DNA of 64,000 bases from Galdieria sulphuraria (lineage: Eukaryota; Rhodophyta; Bangiophyceae; Galdieriales; Galdieriaceae), in assembly GCF_000341285.1 (NCBI RefSeq), contig NW_005178419.1:32376-96375 (forward strand), read 5' to 3'. Shown here in pieces: positions 29,287 to 60,627 of the stretch (the stretch's first letter is position 1; each line of letters begins with the position of its first letter). The position numbers and the translations under genes are program-made. The notes beneath the pieces are model-generated. The model was given only the letters and a program-made list of their open reading frames with translations, was not told the DNA's origin and ran no database searches.

Positions 29287-29521
29287 TATTGTTGAACTCG
29301 ATATCTTGACAACCATAGTTTCGTGATCCTGTTGGACATCCTCTGTTATTTGGTACAGTATTGGCAGATTGGGAAACATAGCGTTTGTCTGTGATAGTTT
29401 TCGTTATAGTTGTCGTACATCTCAACTTTTTAGAGGCAGAAACTGTAGCCGACAAGTTATCTTCAAAAATTGCTCTTTTGTCCGTAGAGACTTGTTAAGT
29501 TTCCAGCCCTACTTGTCAAGT

Positions 29522-31072
29522 ATGACTTTAGAAAGTCAGCAGTGTTACTCCCACTCATCGGTTTCGTGCCAGTTCGAAGCCTTACCTTCAGCTGTCTCAG
29601 AAGTTGATGAGGACTGCAAGGTTCAAAACCAAGTCTCACAAGTACGCGATGATTCTCATTGGTTTGAAAATTATTCCTGCAGTGTCTTATCTCGTACCTT
29701 TTCTGAAAGTGTGAACAGTGAAGATACATTGTCTATTGAGTTGCGACAAGACAAGCAAAGAGAAAATTTATCAGCTGACTTAGAACGAAGTGTTGTAGAA
29801 GAGTCTCACAAGTCGAGTAGTGGATATTCTGTTGTCAAACCAAGTTGTTGCAAAATGGTGGAAAGTCTTTTGAAAAATTTGCCCAGTAAGGTGTATCGAG
29901 TGCCATCGGGAACTGATCTGGAGTGGATTGCCAGTAAATTTATACATCGGGGAGAAGAGCAAGCTTTTTATGTCATCGATATTGGAGCTGTAGAGAAGAA
30001 GTACCTCGAGTTTGTCCGTCAACTTCCTCGTGTACATCCTTATTTTGCAGTCAAATGCAATCCAGATCCGGTAATTGTACGTTTACTTGCAGCACTTGGT
30101 TGCAACTTCGATTGTGCGTCGAAATCGGAGATTAAACTTGTCAGTGCATCTGGAGTATCAGGCGATCGAGTTATCTATGCCAATCCTTGTAAGCCACAGC
30201 ATCATCTTTCCTACGCAGTGGAAAAGGGAGTTACTTTGGTTACCTTTGATAATAGAGATGAACTATACAAGTTGCGTCAACTTGGTTCCCATGTTCGAGC
30301 CATATTGCGTATCGCAACTGAAGACGAAGATTCTTTGTGTCCATTGAGTTCCAAGTTTGGAGCATTTATGGAAGAAGTTCCTAGTCTTTTAAGTATTGCA
30401 CAGACACTCAATGTACGTGTTGTAGGAGTTGCATTTCATGTTGGTTCGGGATGTCGTTGTGTGAAATCTTATATTTCTTCTATCGAAAATGCACGTCGAG
30501 TTTTTGATATAGCTGAAAGCATGGGATTGCCTCCCATGACGATTTTAGATATTGGTGGTGGATTTCCTGGATTTGACGGAGAGTCTTCCATTACTTTTGA
30601 GGAAATTGCGAAAGGAATTCGAGGACACTTGGACAAACTGTTTCCTGAAGAGCAACAAGTGGAGATTATTGCCGAGCCTGGTCGTTATTTTGTTGGCTCT
30701 AGTCATACTTTGATGACTCGTGTGAACGGACGTCGACATCGTTTGCGTGGAGATGAAGCTGGTTCAAGAGAAGATTGTGTGGATTATTATATAGATGATG
30801 GCGTTTATGGTTCCTTTAGAGATGTTTTGACGCTTGGCATTACTTTTTATCCCAATTGTTTTCCTCACTGTTCCAATCGACGCATATTGAAGAGTACTAT
30901 CTTTGGTCCAACCTGTGACTCTATTGATTGTATCATTCGTGATTATCCGCTGCGAGAGTTGGATGTTGGAGATTGGATTTATTTCAAAGATATGGGTGCC
31001 TACACCATCAGCTTGGCAAGTAGCTTCAATGGATTCCATAAGCCGTCTTGCAAATATATCTATGGCATGTAG
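29522..31072 (+). CDS. ODC: Ornithine decarboxylase (PLP, group IV)
   Basis: Single exon, 516 residues from ATG 29522. It makes putrescine from ornithine, the first step of polyamine synthesis. The PLP lysine is Lys178 in YFAVKCNPDP. Other hallmarks are FDCASKSEI, the FHVGSGC loop, the Gly-rich DIGGGFPG and EPGRYFV. The active-site cysteine is Cys465 in FGPTCDSID, and YIDDGVYGSF is the closing motif. The FGPTCDSID and DDGVYGSF wording favours ornithine over lysine or diaminopimelate. An N-terminal extension of about 110 residues precedes the conserved part. It is Ser and Glu rich with low complexity, does not look like a transit peptide, and could carry regulation. Convergent with the CXC-domain gene. 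Confidence 0.92.
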   Translation: MTLESQQCYSHSSVSCQFEALPSAVSEVDEDCKVQNQVSQVRDDSHWFENYSCSVLSRTFSESVNSEDTLSIELRQDKQRENLSADLERSVVEESHKSSSGYSVVKPSCCKMVESLLKNLPSKVYRVPSGTDLEWIASKFIHRGEEQAFYVIDIGAVEKKYLEFVRQLPRVHPYFAVKCNPDPVIVRLLAALGCNFDCASKSEIKLVSASGVSGDRVIYANPCKPQHHLSYAVEKGVTLVTFDNRDELYKLRQLGSHVRAILRIATEDEDSLCPLSSKFGAFMEEVPSLLSIAQTLNVRVVGVAFHVGSGCRCVKSYISSIENARRVFDIAESMGLPPMTILDIGGGFPGFDGESSITFEEIAKGIRGHLDKLFPEEQQVEIIAEPGRYFVGSSHTLMTRVNGRRHRLRGDEAGSREDCVDYYIDDGVYGSFRDVLTLGITFYPNCFPHCSNRRILKSTIFGPTCDSIDCIIRDYPLRELDVGDWIYFKDMGAYTISLASSFNGFHKPSCKYIYGM

Positions 31073-51007: not shown

Positions 51008-51991
51008 GTATTCAATGAAAATTATTTTTTGTAGAGGATAAAGTCAATAGAATAAACAAAAACACACTGCAGCACAATACCAGTCGCGTCTGAGATTAAA
51101 GAAAACCTCCAAAAATGCCTTTCAAATTAAGGCCATAGATCCCATGTAGAGTAGAAGTTCTATAGCATACTGATTGCAAAAATAGTTTTTGACTAAACTA
51201 GAAAAAATATAAAAGACAAAAAAATTTTATTCAAAATATTATGAGGAGCCAAATTACCAGTAAATATCGATAAATACAAAAAAAACAAACATAAAAATCA
51301 TCTAGAGAGAAATTTCAGCTTGTAAATGTTTTCGCCTTTTATTTTATCAAAAGTCAATATTTTAAGCGAAGTCAATACGCTAAAATAGAGTAAACGCAAT
51401 TTACAACGTAAAAATCCAACAAAAAATTAAATTTTGATGCCATAACCAAGCTTTTCACGGAAAGCATAAAAATTTAAAATAATTGACCAAAATAAAATCA
51501 CAATTCAAACGAATTATCTTTTACTTGAAACAACAATGATCTGCATAAATGTTAGTATTATGATAAAAAAACTCTATCTGAAAATGATCTTTGTCGTCTT
51601 GGAAGAATACTCCAACTAAACGATTATGGGGAATTTTAAGTTTTTTCTTGATATTTTCAAGCTAACAAGTCATATTTATTTTTTTTAAGTTTTTGGTGTT
51701 TCGGTACACAAGGTCTAATTTCGATCATAGTGAGGCATGGTTCTTGAGCTTAATTTTATGTTTGCTAATTAATTTTTTTATGAATAATTTTTCAAGACTT
51801 AATCATAAGAGTGTATTTTTCTTATTTTCGACAAAAGTTTGTGGATTCACTTGAAGTTTTGATTGCATTTTCAGATAATATTTTATTATTCTCTTTTGCG
51901 TTAGCTTTGATTGTTTTTGGATTTAATCTCCTGTTTAATCTCAACGTGTTGATTTTCTATTTTTCAGGACGCATGTGACTTAGTTTGTCCT
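51008..51991. other. Long AT-rich region with a base-composition switch
   Basis: 984 bp, the longest clearly empty stretch in the gene-dense part. The first half (to about 51560) is A-rich on the plus strand with few T runs. The second half (51600-51960) is strongly T-rich. No coding frame, tRNA or repeat unit was recognised. The T-rich part ends in a good acceptor (TTTTTCAG at about 51960-51967), so part of it is probably a 5' intron or leader of the methyltransferase gene; its frame is open from that point to the ATG. Confidence 0.5.
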
Positions 51992-54159
51992 ATGGGGAAG
52001 GTTAAACGTGGTGAAGATGCCGATTTTGAACTAGCTCTTTCTATTCATCGGGAGGAGAAGTAAGTAATTCCTCATGTTCGAAATACTTTCTTTTGAAGCT
52101 TCACAGCTCTCGTGACACACGTTTCCGAAGCAGAGAGGCAAAAAATGTGTCTTCTCCTGGTAGTAGGCTCTATTCTTCTTATATTTTCTGGCTATTCACA
52201 AGTATGCAGGTGGATCTCTGTTGGAACAGTCATGGAGTAGTGGTACCTTAAAAGGTCAATACGTGGAGGACGATATCGATCTGAGTGCTCTCCAAAACGT
52301 GGTTATTTATCACAGAGAAAAAGAGTTCTTTAGTTTCCTAGATACTGCGAACGAAACAGCAGTTGATCAGAGGTTTCGCGATGGTGCATATATTAATTGT
52401 GACTTACGTTACTTTAATTTACGCTATCTTCGCGAGAAATTGGGAAGTTTTGATGTGGTTTTAGCGGATCCGCCTTGGCGTATACGTGGAGCTGAAAAGA
52501 AATGTTCTAGCGATGGTATCATGAACACCATGTTTAGCAACAGTCGTTGGCAGGTTGTAATGGATTTTAGTTGAAGTGAAAAAGTGAAACTGTTTATGTC
52601 ATAGTTGGAATATCGTACTCTTTCGTTTCAAGATATTAGAGATATGGATATTGGTTGTCTTTCAGATGAAGGGTTTCTTTTTCTTTGGGTTGTCAAGTCA
52701 CAAGTAGCTGCAGGGTTGGAATGCCTTGGTAAATGGGGTTATGATTATGTGGACCTCATTACTTGGGTAAAGACGGTAATAAAGTTATATAGATTAGTCG
52801 AACAGGATAACTATGGTTAACTTGCATTCGTGATTTTTAGAGAAATCGCAAATTACATATCAGTCATGGATATCATATTCTTCATTCTACCGAATTGTGT
52901 TTAGTTGGTTTGAAAAGTGGACCCAATACTCGATTTCGTTATGTAGGAAAGGTTGCCAACGATGTTATTATTTCGAGTGTTCGAGAACGAAGCAGAAAAC
53001 CGGATCAGTTGTATCATATCATCGAAGCCATGGTAAATGACCTTTTGTAACAACACATTGACAGTTGGTTATGTTTTGTAGTTTCCAGGTTCTCAAAAGA
53101 TAGAGTTGTTTGCGAGGAACCATAATATTCGTCCTGGTTGGCTTAGTCTTGGAAACGAGTTGGGTGAGAATTATGTTTATTGGCACAACGAGTTTACTTG
53201 TGATCGTTGCCAGAGACGTATTACGACAGGACGAAGGCGTTACAAGTCACGAATTAAGGCCAATTATGATATTTGTGAAATTTGTTGGCCAGCATATTTA
53301 TCCGAACATGCACAAGATGGAATAGCAAGTCAAGAAGCTCATTTTTTTGCTTTGGAAAATGTTGTCGAGGAGGCTGTTTATCACGAGTATTTTGAATGCA
53401 ATATGTGCAAAGTTGGTAAAGTTACTTTTTCAGTATAACTTTCTGTTGTTCTTTAGGTGACTCCTATTTGGGGTGTTCGTTTTAGTTGCCAAAATTGTGA
53501 AGAATATGATTTGTGTGAAGCTTGTTTCGATAAGAGTCTTTTGCATGAAGAAGGAAAAAAGCATTCGCTATTGCATACTTGGAAAGCTTATGAGCTTCCT
53601 CAGAGTGCGGGCGACCTTCCCGTCCATCGAGGAGCTCGTTGTCAAGGATGCTTACAATATCCAATCATTGGATATCGCTTTCACTGTTTGGAATGTGTTC
53701 CTACAGTTGACTTGTGTCAAAAATGTTTCTTTGCCATGAAACTTCCGCGTTCTCATACTTTTCAACATGAAATGGAAGCTATCATAACTCCTTCTGCCTC
53801 AGAGTTTCGTCGACATACTGCTTGTGCTGGATGCAAAATGAAACCTATTGGGTAAGTAATATTCTTCTTTGTTCAGTGGAAATGGGTCATTATAAGAAAT
53901 GGTTCACAGAGGAAATTACTGGAAATGTGATAGCTGTTTCAGTTTCGAACTGTGCGATGAATGTTATCAAAACAAAGTAGTTACTTGGAGCTATCCTGGA
54001 CATAAGGCACATCACAGTTTTTCGATGGTGATCCAACAAGAGGGAAATAGCGCTGCTGCTTTACAATTGAAAGAGTCTCCCTTGTTAGAACAAGAAACGA
54101 CTTCACCAGTAGTAACACCCACATCGTCCAACTGGATAAACACCCCAACCAACGAATGA
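51992..54159 (+). CDS. MT-A70 N6-adenine methyltransferase fused to four ZZ-type zinc fingers
   Basis: Eight exons: 51992-52059, 52107-52159, 52210-52553, 52605-52775, 52841-53032, 53082-53411, 53457-53851 and 53910-54159. Introns are 45-65 bp, all phases match, and the product has 600 residues. The MT-A70 domain spans about residues 100-310: YINCDLRYFNLRYL, then catalytic DPPW at 127-130, DEGFLFLWVVKS, WGYDYVDLITWVKT, ELCLVGLKSG, RKPDQLYHIIEAM, and KIELFARNHNIRPGWLSLGNE. This is the METTL3/MTA-like SAM fold acting on adenine N6 in RNA or DNA. Four ZZ-type fingers follow: Cys316-344, 382-409, 448-476 and 509-536. The last three have the full CxxC...CxxC...DLCxxC pattern; the first lacks its middle pair. 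The C-terminal tail is low complexity. The ATG may be preceded by a 5' intron. Confidence 0.88.
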
Positions 54160-54253: not shown

Positions 54254-54824
54254 TTAATCTTGCTTTGCAAATAGCACTGTATACATCTTCGCAACAGAAC
54301 GAAAGCCACGCAAGTCACCAGCTCTCAATAAGTTACCAGCGTCACAATTGAGAGGACTGTCAGGTTCTGGATGAGACAGCAATACCAAAATGGCACGACA
54401 AACAGACTGTAACGTCCATGCAGGACTCCAAGTGGTTTTTAGAATATCCAAACAGATTTCTCCAGTCTAAAAAAGGTATGAACACGGCTTCCAAGAGGTT
54501 AACGGTAAGGCTGTGAAACTTACTTTGGCGTGAATGTTGGGATGAAATATCTTAGTTTTCAGTCGAACGGTGGGTGCTGATAAAGGGTAATTGTTGGGAA
54601 TACGAATTTCCAAAACAAAAGTTCCACCCTGAAACAAAACCTGTTGGGTTTCCTCAAGGATATACTATATTTCTTACCTCATAAGGTGAGTCGACAGGAC
54701 CTTTCAACTTTGCTTGCCAGTGCAACAAATTATCGTCAGTTGGATAAAGAAAGATATCAGGGTCTTGTTTCTTAGCTTTTTCCAACTCTTCCCATTCTTT
54801 ATATAAACGACGAGATGGCGCCAT
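54254..54824 (-). CDS. PEX4: Peroxisomal ubiquitin-conjugating enzyme PEX4 (UBC21-like E2)
   Basis: Three exons: 54824-54678, 54628-54524 and 54466-54254, with introns of 49 and 57 bp and 154 residues, the usual E2 core length. The E2 fold is complete: RRLYKEWEELEKAKKQDPDI, then PYEGGTFVLEIRIP and FHPNIHAKTGEICLDILKTTW with the catalytic Cys. The block WSPAWTLQSVCRAILVLL and HPEPDSPLNCDAGNLLR is diagnostic of PEX4 rather than other E2s. PEX4 monoubiquitinates the import receptor PEX5 so it can be recycled. The ATG at 54824 sits in the palindrome ATGGCGCCAT. Upstream codons in frame begin only at a TTG. 87 bp separate it from the divergent AHA1 start. Confidence 0.93.
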
Positions 54825-54911
54825 TCCACAACTTTTTTCTCCCAATTTGAGGAATTCTTATCTAGAAATTTCTGCAATTGTTTGCAAGTTTGCTTTCTTC
54901 CTTAGAACACT

Positions 54912-57495: not shown

Positions 57496-57931
57496 ATCAA
57501 CTATCTCTCTCTACACAAATCCACTAAAATTTCAGAAATGGATTAGGTCTTCACTTATCGGAATAGTCATTGAAATTTCTAGTGTCTATGAATATCATTT
57601 AATACTTATGATGAAGAAAGAATGGAGAATGATATTCGTTATTTATTCTTATGTTGACGTTCTTCATTATCTCGCAATAGTGATGAATGATGAAGGGATT
57701 GAATTGTCATCTTATTATCATCTCGATAAAAGTACAGTGCTGTACTAGTATCAACTTTCCCAACAAGAGTAATTTACCAATATTGTTAAGAATATAATTC
57801 ATTCTTTGAAAAAGTTTGTTGTTCAACAGTTTGTCTCTTTTTATATGAATAATTTATGAAGAAAAATGCCAAGTACTAAATTGTACTAGTGCGCCACTTT
57901 TCAGTGGAGATTGTGTGTGATAAATATTCTC
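57496..57931. other. Divergent promoter region
   Basis: 436 bp between the MFS and methylmalonyl-CoA mutase starts. TACTAG occurs twice (near 57742 and 57884). Nothing else was recognised. Confidence 0.4.
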
Positions 57932-60627
57932 ATGTGGAAAACAAGTATTTTTCAAAGATACAGGAATCGAATCGCAAGTTGGAAGTATTTCTTTTCTACA
58001 ACTTCAAGGGAAAGTAGCAACAATAATAGTAAGGATATCCAAGCAGGACATACCATGAAGAACCCCCCTGGAGAACGACCTCTACCAAAGCAATGGTTAC
58101 AAGTTGCAGCAAAAGAATTGAAATGTTCAGAAGAAGAAGTTATGAAGAAGTTGGTTTTGACATATCCAGAAGGTATTCACGTTAAACCAATTTATACTGC
58201 AGAGGATATCGATTGGGATGCGGTGAAGAGTCAGTTACCCGGTTTTTATCCTTTTACTAGAGGCATTCACGCCTCCATGTATACAAACAAACCTTGGACT
58301 ATTCGACAATATGCGGGTTTTAGTACTGCTGAAGAAAGTAATCGATTCTACAAACAGGCTCTTGCAGCTGGACAAAAAGGTCTGAGTGTTGCTTTTGATT
58401 TGGCCACTCATCGAGGTTATGATTCGGTGAGTGCTTTGTTTTAGGAAGTTTGGTGATATGAATATAAGGATACATATTGATGGTAGGATCATCCACGCGT
58501 CAAAGGAGATGTAGGAATGGCTGGAGTAGCCATTGACAGTGTAGAAGATATGAAACTCTTATTCGATAGCATTCCGTTGGACCAAGTAACCGTATCCATG
58601 ACCATGAATGGAGCAGTATTACCCGTTTTAGCTTTCTATATTGTAAGAAAATGAAATAGTTTTAAAAAGTAACAGTAAATGAGAAATTCTTCGTAGGTTG
58701 CGGCTGAAGAACAGGGAGTAGCTAAAGAAAAACTCTCAGGAACCATTCAGAACGATATTTTGAAAGAGTTTATGGTCCGAAACACTTTTATATTTCCTCC
58801 ACAGCCGTCAATGCGTACTATTGGAGATATAATGCAATATTGCGCACAAAACATGCCAAAATACAACACGATTTCTGTTTCTGGTTATCATATGCAAGAA
58901 GCAGGTGCAAATGCTGCATTAGAATTAGGATTTACTATTGCAGATGGAATAGAATATTTGAGAACTGGGATCCAAGCAGGCCTTTCAGTAGACCAAGTAG
59001 CTCCAAGAGTATCTTTTTTCTTTGGTATTGGTATGAACTTTTATGTAGAAATAGCCAAATTGAGAGCTGCTCGGAAATTGTGGGCGAATCTAGTGAAGGA
59101 GAAGTTTCAACCCAAGAATCCCAAGTCTCTACTTCTTAGAACACATTGTCAGACTAGTGGTTATTCACTCACTGAACAGGAACCATACAATAACGTGATT
59201 CGGTAGGTATTGAATGCCATGAAGAATGAGGATACTGAATAGATTGACTAGAACCACTATTGAAGCACTTTCTGCAGTTTTAGGTGGTACACAAAGTCTC
59301 CATACCAATTCTTTGGATGAAGCCATTGCATTACCTTCGGCTTTTTCTGCACGCTTGGCTAGAAATACTCAATTGATTTTACAGTTGGAAACAGGTATAC
59401 CGAATGTTGCAGATCCCTGGGGAGGTTCTTTTATGATGGAAGCATTGACAGATGAACTCGCTTCTAGAGCAGAATATATTATACAAGAGGTAAGAGAGAA
59501 GGAAATGCTAATCAATCATTTGTTGCTTATTAGAAAAGGTGGAAAAATCAGGTGGAATGGCTAAGGCAGTTGCTCAAGGTTGGCCAAAGTTGTGGATAGA
59601 AGAGAGTGCTGCTCGTAAACAAGCTCGTATTGATTCGGGTGAAGAAGTCATTGTTGGAGTTAACAAATATCGGTTGGAGAGCTCATCTTCTGATACAGAT
59701 TTCTCGAATCAACAGTCTGAAGAGTTGGAAATTTTAAAAATTGATGCTCAGCGAGTACGAGACTCTCAAATAGAGAGAATAAAAAAGGTTAAGAGCAGTA
59801 GAGATGAAGAGAAAGTAAAACAGTGTCTTGCTGATTTGGAAATGGCTGCGAAGGATACTAGTAAGAATCTATTGGAAGCTTCAGTAAATGCAGCTAGAGC
59901 CAGATGTACTTTGGGAGAGATTTGTGGCTCTTTGGAAAAAGTGTGGGGCAGACATGTTCCTAAGGATGATGTTGTTAGTGGCGCCTATCGAGGTTCTTAT
60001 CGCGGAATGAAGAAAGATGCCGGATCGAAACAGGAAGGATATGATTTAGAACAAGTCATTGAGCATGTTGTTCAGTTTGAAGAGCGAATGGGTCGTCGAC
60101 CACGTATTTTAGTAGCTAAGATGGGACAGGATGGACATGATCGAGGCGCCAAAGTTATAGCTTCAGGATTTGCTGGTATGTAAGAATACTTTAGACTCGA
60201 GAGGCTGTTGAATATATGTTTGAATAGATTTGGGTTTTGATGTTGATATTGGTCCTTTGTTTTCGACGCCTCAAGAAGTTGCCAAACAAGCCATTGAAGC
60301 AGATGTTCATTGTATTGGTGTTTCTAGTTTGGCAGCTGCTCATTTGACTTTGGTGAGAGAATCATTTTGAGTTGCAAAACAATTCATTATCTCTTTGGTT
60401 AGGTTCCTGAACTTATGGAAGAACTACAAAAGCAGTCTGCAACCCATATCAAAGTCATAGTTGGTGGAGTCATTCCATATACAGATTATGACTTTCTAAA
60501 GAAGATTGGTATCAAAGTCATTTGTGGACCAGGAACTCGTATTCCAGATGCCGCTATGCAAGTACTGAAAGCTATCGAAGACGAACCTATCAATGGAACG
60601 AATAATGGAGTAGAACAAACATCTTAA
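57932..60627 (+). CDS. MUT: Methylmalonyl-CoA mutase, mitochondrial, B12-dependent
   Basis: Seven exons: 57932-58426, 58487-58642, 58697-59202, 59252-59489, 59539-60175, 60228-60352 and 60403-60627, with introns of 49-60 bp and 793 residues. It isomerises methylmalonyl-CoA to succinyl-CoA in propionate, odd-chain and branched amino-acid breakdown. The N-terminus ([20 protein letters not shown]) is a mitochondrial presequence. The barrel domain has [38 protein letters not shown] and [15 protein letters not shown]. The C-terminal cobalamin domain has [13 protein letters not shown], whose DxHxxG motif supplies the cobalt-binding His, and [15 protein letters not shown]. The acceptor of intron 3 is chosen so that conserved RTTIEAL is restored. 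The enzyme needs adenosylcobalamin. Confidence 0.96.

Follow-up and report, generated by a model that had tools for sequence, protein, structure and literature searches.

Background

Which kind of methyltransferase is encoded where, in Galdieria DNA, an MT-A70 adenine methyltransferase domain runs into an array of ZZ-type zinc fingers, and does any described family have the same layout? The locus lies in a 64-kb window, the whole stretch of DNA that was analysed, which has a G+C content of 38.6%. A sequence-only reading of this DNA had suggested that no described protein combines MT-A70 with ZZ fingers, and that the combination would point to methylation directed to chromatin.

Six MT-A70 families are recognised in eukaryotes, namely AMT1, AMT6/7, AMT2/5, METTL3, METTL14 and METTL4, and the duplications that produced them are inferred to predate the last eukaryotic common ancestor (PMC12695648, in the part available). 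The same portion of that source describes C-terminal ZZ zinc fingers as exceptional to AMT2/5 among the six families, gives their function as 'unknown', and reports that AMT2/5 often co-occurs with AMT1. ZZ fingers are likewise given as the feature that distinguishes AMT2 and AMT5 in the accessible text of PMC8265677. In Tetrahymena, de novo 6mA on the DNA of the new macronucleus reportedly depends on AMT2 and AMT5 (excerpt of PMC13297926, citing Sci Adv eadq4623), and two putative DNA methyltransferase homologs resembling AMT2 have been reported from a ciliate (excerpt of PMC11441545).

The layout has therefore been published as AMT2/5 (PMC12695648 and PMC8265677, in the parts available); the claim that no such protein had been described was wrong, and a novel architecture was rejected. 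The sequence-only reading had also considered that the architecture might prove to be both described and common: it is described, and the accessible part of PMC12695648 calls AMT2/5 less common. The available portions of PMC8885841 and PMC11760949 hold nothing further on AMT2/5. A literature search returned no paper dealing jointly with Galdieria and MT-A70, although published tables may still hold the gene. For Galdieria and 6mA, among the matches listed, PMC9861306 names Galdieria in its reference list only, and PMC12633428 mentions it when commenting on transformation and in one cited reference.

Results and discussion

Gene structure

Counted from its first ATG up to and including the stop codon, the coding region occupies positions 51992 to 54159 of the forward strand, exactly as the sequence-only reading had placed it. 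With splice sites inferred from the sequence, the gene model consists of eight exons separated by seven GT-AG introns and gives one open frame of 600 amino acids. Exon 1 (51992-52059) begins with the first ATG and is followed by the short exon 2 (52107-52159), with GT-AG introns on either side and the frame kept. Exon 3 (52210-52553) codes for the N-terminal region and the start of MT-A70, with the DPPW motif at 52467-52478, exon 4 (52605-52775) for the MT-A70 core, and exon 5 (52841-53032) for a further part of MT-A70 that includes the residues equivalent to METTL3 E481 and K513. The uninterrupted exon 6 (53082-53411) carries the conserved end of MT-A70, ELFARNHNIRPGWLSLGNE, together with ZZ1 and the start of ZZ2. 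The remainder of ZZ2, ZZ3 and the start of ZZ4 are found in exon 7 (53457-53851), and the end of ZZ4 in exon 8 (53910-54159), which also encodes a C-terminal tail with no Pfam match and ends in the stop codon TGA (54157-54159).

The introns measure, in order, 47, 50, 51, 65, 49, 45 and 58 nucleotides (range 45-65), and the frame is kept at every junction. Whichever of the seven is retained, the frame is shifted, meets a stop codon, or suffers both; five are not multiples of three, and introns 3 and 6, which are, both contain in-frame stops. The donor is of the GTTG type in these last two introns (52554-52604 and 53412-53456) and of the GTA type in the other five.

Other models were tried and rejected. 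A single first intron of 150 nucleotides lost the frame, which was restored by the short exon 52107-52159 and corrected junctions. The extra loop that follows DPPW was inspected by eye for an overlooked intron whose splicing would take it out, and the only in-phase donor found there was the one already used. Read-through past the intron before exon 4 is stopped by a TAG just 5' of that exon.

It might be argued that the model joins two neighbouring genes or contains a mis-splice, considering that its splice sites were deduced rather than observed and that two introns have GTTG donors. Against this, the end of MT-A70 and ZZ1 are encoded in one exon without a stop (53082-53411), all junctions are in frame whereas retention of any intron disrupts the reading, and we regard a joining of this kind as almost certainly wrong. 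Since the end of MT-A70 and ZZ1 share an exon, the fusion is independent of splicing. A split into separate transcripts near 53100, named in the sequence-only reading as the result that would count against it, is very unlikely, as position 53100 lies inside that exon.

The start of the protein is uncertain because the frame of exon 1 is open 5' of the ATG as far as 51953. The N-terminus may be longer, and a further upstream coding exon or an intron in the 5' untranslated region is possible. An acceptor-like TTTTTCAG occurs at 51960-51967.

Genomic surroundings

A survey of the window gave 57 open reading frames (ORFs) of at least 130 amino acids, and 28 of these plus two shorter ones were scanned with Pfam at E values up to 0.001. 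Ordinary cellular protein families were matched by 25 of the 28 and by both short ORFs, while three of the 28 matched none; no MT-A70 match occurred among these 30 ORFs. The remaining 29 of the 57, outside the Pfam survey, include two exons of the MT-A70/ZZ gene itself. Exons of a ubiquitin-conjugating enzyme (UQ_con, 54470-54857, reverse strand) adjoin the 3' end of the gene and are followed by an Aha1-type gene; neither neighbour suggests a pathway in common with the methyltransferase. Farther away are exons of the methylmalonyl-CoA mutase family (57890-60180, forward strand) and a pyridoxal-dependent decarboxylase (Orn_Arg_deC_N, 29327-31069). In the latter, the model of the C-terminal sheet domain matches amino acids 214-557, a span that surrounds the pyridoxal-binding domain (220-457).

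Domain content

The domain search proposed in the sequence-only reading was carried out on the spliced 600-residue protein and returned both expected domains. MT-A70 (PF05063) gave one match, at amino acids 121-302 (E 7.1e-37), and ZZ (PF00569) matched four stretches C-terminal to it (E 3.7e-32). Scanned singly, ZZ1 to ZZ4 scored 30.3, 50.1, 39.7 and 30.8 bits, all above the curated Pfam cut-off of 21.4 bits. Beyond MT-A70 and ZZ, no Pfam family exceeded its cut-off in the whole protein, and no CCCH finger was matched at E values up to 1 in these 600 residues, the N-terminus of which may be incomplete. The description of an MT-A70 domain with DPPW followed by four ZZ fingers in one spliced frame was thus borne out by Pfam and by the eight-exon frame, with the correction that ZZ1 is degenerate.

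State of the catalytic domain

When the whole protein was compared with solved structures (best 60 of 82 matched sequences, with five alignments, all to METTL3), METTL3 scored 143 bits (E 9e-41) and was followed at 122 bits by chains entered as 'MT-a70 family protein', then by METTL14 (63 bits) and MTA9 (26 bits). The 122-bit chains are presumably Tetrahymena MTA1. Among the matches listed, the nearest solved relative by sequence is therefore human METTL3, an RNA enzyme. The scores of METTL3 and the MT-a70 chains set against those of METTL14 and MTA9 indicate a closer resemblance to active subunits than to inactive partners.

Ten METTL3 positions were compared, of which all but E481 and K513 are ones that we take to be pocket residues. 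E481 and K513 are described as adenosine contacts in the substrate pocket (PMC10441475, in the part available). By alignment and a check of the numbering, eight of the ten are kept (D395, E481, K513, E532, R536, H538, N539 and N549) and two are changed (H512 to Arg and Q550 to Glu). The conservation of eight positions makes it likely that the protein is an active methyltransferase. In the alignment with METTL3, 20 additional residues separate DPPW from the next conserved block. A long segment at this place is also seen in some MT-A70-like proteins of viral contigs.

METTL14 has a degenerate catalytic motif, and no such motif of the METTL14 or AMT6/7 type is found here, DPPW being present and eight of the ten positions kept. 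This bears on the proposal that the protein has a non-catalytic or scaffold role in which the ZZ array is the working part. The existence of METTL14 and AMT6/7, MT-A70 paralogues that serve as partners and do not themselves catalyse (PMC12695648, in the part available), lends the proposal some plausibility, as do the two changed pocket positions, but the intact DPPW and remaining positions, and a METTL14 match far weaker than that to METTL3 (63 versus 143 bits), make it distinctly improbable.

The same comparison raises the question of an RNA m6A methyltransferase with METTL3-like function, in which ZZ fingers would take over from the CCCH fingers and the partners that such enzymes usually have. 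The best solved match being to METTL3, with its E481 and K513 kept, agrees with such a role. It is nevertheless unlikely: CCCH fingers went undetected in the 600-residue protein, whose N-terminus may be incomplete, and ZZ fingers are, in the accessible text of PMC12695648 and PMC8265677, the mark of AMT2/5 and not of METTL3.

Searches for relatives

Searches with exact short peptides of the whole protein, a method that reaches close relatives only, gave one stretch with a peptide-pattern match in viral contigs and seven stretches in prokaryote genomes, and no relative in either set. In phage records, 262 matches were obtained to the first 303 residues, the ZZ array having been left out of the query; among the 20 of these 262 that were listed, identity was 26-36% and none covered 80% of the query. 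Since MT-A70-type domains of phages match these residues, the family cannot be assigned from the catalytic domain by itself.

A pattern for the end of MT-A70 found 10 loci in viral contigs. When L005 is left out, eight of the nine ORFs look like MT-A70 by motif rather than by Pfam, and in three of these eight DPPW is replaced by DPNW or DPAW; a ZZ-like cysteine pattern was present in none of the ORFs from these nine of the 10 loci. At L004 the ORF is read out of register with the pattern match. The proteins of L003 and L009 are near-identical, as are those of L006 and L008. L002 and L010, on two large IMG/VR contigs (349 and 452 kb), encode the same MT-A70-like protein of 244 amino acids and the same separate downstream cysteine-rich ORF of 70 amino acids with a three-pair cysteine motif.

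Membership of the AMT2/5 family

The published hallmarks of AMT2/5, an MT-A70 catalytic domain (PF05063) and several C-terminal ZZ fingers (PF00569), are both present. Membership of this family is very probable, as judged from its rare layout and not from a tree. That basis, together with the phage domains that resemble the first 303 residues, also gives room to the idea that a member of another MT-A70 family acquired ZZ fingers independently in this lineage, which would make the protein AMT2/5-like in layout only. We consider such a fusion quite unlikely. This uncommon combination of domains, arranged identically, occurs in a family placed by the available part of PMC12695648 among those ancestral to eukaryotes, and common descent is simpler than independent fusion because the layout is already assigned to that ancestral family.

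The ZZ fingers

The four fingers differ in state. ZZ1 (53184-53309, forward strand) is degenerate: its first zinc site is kept, and Ser and Lys stand where the second CxxC pair belongs, so that the third and fourth zinc-ligand cysteines, those of the second zinc site, are gone. ZZ2 (53382-53537), split by the intron 53412-53456, ZZ3 (53625-53747) and ZZ4 (53817-53976), split by the intron 53852-53909, all on the forward strand, are complete, each with three CxxC pairs and downstream histidines. The array is thus read from the sequence as three complete fingers and one degenerate finger. The matches of ZZ1 to the ZZ domains of p62 and HERC2 are no more than weak (18.3 bits, E 0.025). For ZZ2, ZZ3 and ZZ4 the nearest solved ZZ is that of HERC2 (40.1, 38.7 and 33.8 bits, respectively), with the ZZ of PRT1 also among the closest to ZZ3.

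Some ZZ fingers of other proteins bind protein N-termini. In ZZZ3, D824 and D848 hold the N-terminus of histone H3; all H3-binding ZZ domains are said to carry Asp where ZZZ3 has D848 and either Asp or Asn where it has D824, and ZZ domains that do not bind did not become binders when given acidic residues (PMC6138639, in the part available). In p62, D129, D147 and D149 are needed to bind arginylated N-termini (excerpt of PMC6197226). By our own count along the ZZ alignments, the residue pairs corresponding to D824 and D848 are D/D in the zinc-degenerate ZZ1, N/D in ZZ2, Q/D in ZZ3 and A/E in ZZ4. The published rule for the H3 cage is hence fitted by one of the three complete fingers, ZZ2, which has Asn and Asp at the two positions, and not by ZZ3 or ZZ4. 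ZZ2 is accordingly predicted to be the best candidate to bind proteins by a free N-terminus, for example histone H3. The idea of a histone reader is weakened for most of the array because ZZ3 and ZZ4 lack the cage residues.

Proposed function

We favour as probable the reading that the gene encodes a DNA 6mA writer of the AMT2/5 class whose ZZ array docks on proteins. The MT-A70 domain would methylate adenine in DNA, and the C-terminal array would anchor the enzyme to proteins, probably to chromatin or to a partner, with ZZ2 as the candidate binder of a free N-terminus such as that of histone H3. For this mechanism, considered apart from family membership, the case is evenly balanced. Methylation directed to chromatin, as the sequence-only reading had envisaged, is plausible.

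A more far-reaching version can be imagined, in which an AMT2/5 writer has been kept without AMT1 and the ZZ array, chiefly ZZ2, replaces p1/p2 and places 6mA by reading histone tails, giving a reader and writer in one protein; this is speculative and we would not expect it to hold.

The gene is best regarded as a further AMT2/5 member and opens no new kind of system. For a family in which the role of the ZZ fingers is published as unknown, it provides one more AMT2/5-type gene whose exons and individual fingers have been described, and if the prediction for ZZ2 is true it would provide a residue-level test of histone-tail guidance of AMT2/5.

Comparison with known systems

METTL3 (IME4) provides the nearest solved catalytic domain, at 143 bits and with eight of 10 pocket positions conserved. 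It has N-terminal CCCH zinc fingers, whereas the Galdieria protein has none detected, carries 20 extra residues after DPPW and has added ZZ fingers. The ZZ of HERC2, the structures of which come from fusions with SUMO1 and histone H3.1, is the closest solved relative of ZZ2 to ZZ4, although HERC2 is otherwise unrelated and the Asp that follows its first cysteine is Asn, Gln and Ala in ZZ2, ZZ3 and ZZ4, respectively. Ciliate AMT1/MTA1, responsible for maintenance 6mA, has an active-type MT-A70 domain in common with the Galdieria protein (122 bits to the 'MT-a70 family protein' chains), but ZZ fingers are ascribed among the six families to AMT2/5 only, and AMT1 works with AMT6/7, p1 and p2 (PMC12695648, in the part available). 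With AMT2/5, represented by Tetrahymena AMT2 and AMT5 and compared here through their published description rather than their sequences, the Galdieria protein shares an MT-A70 domain that has several ZZ fingers C-terminal to it, and it differs in that the first of its fingers is degenerate.
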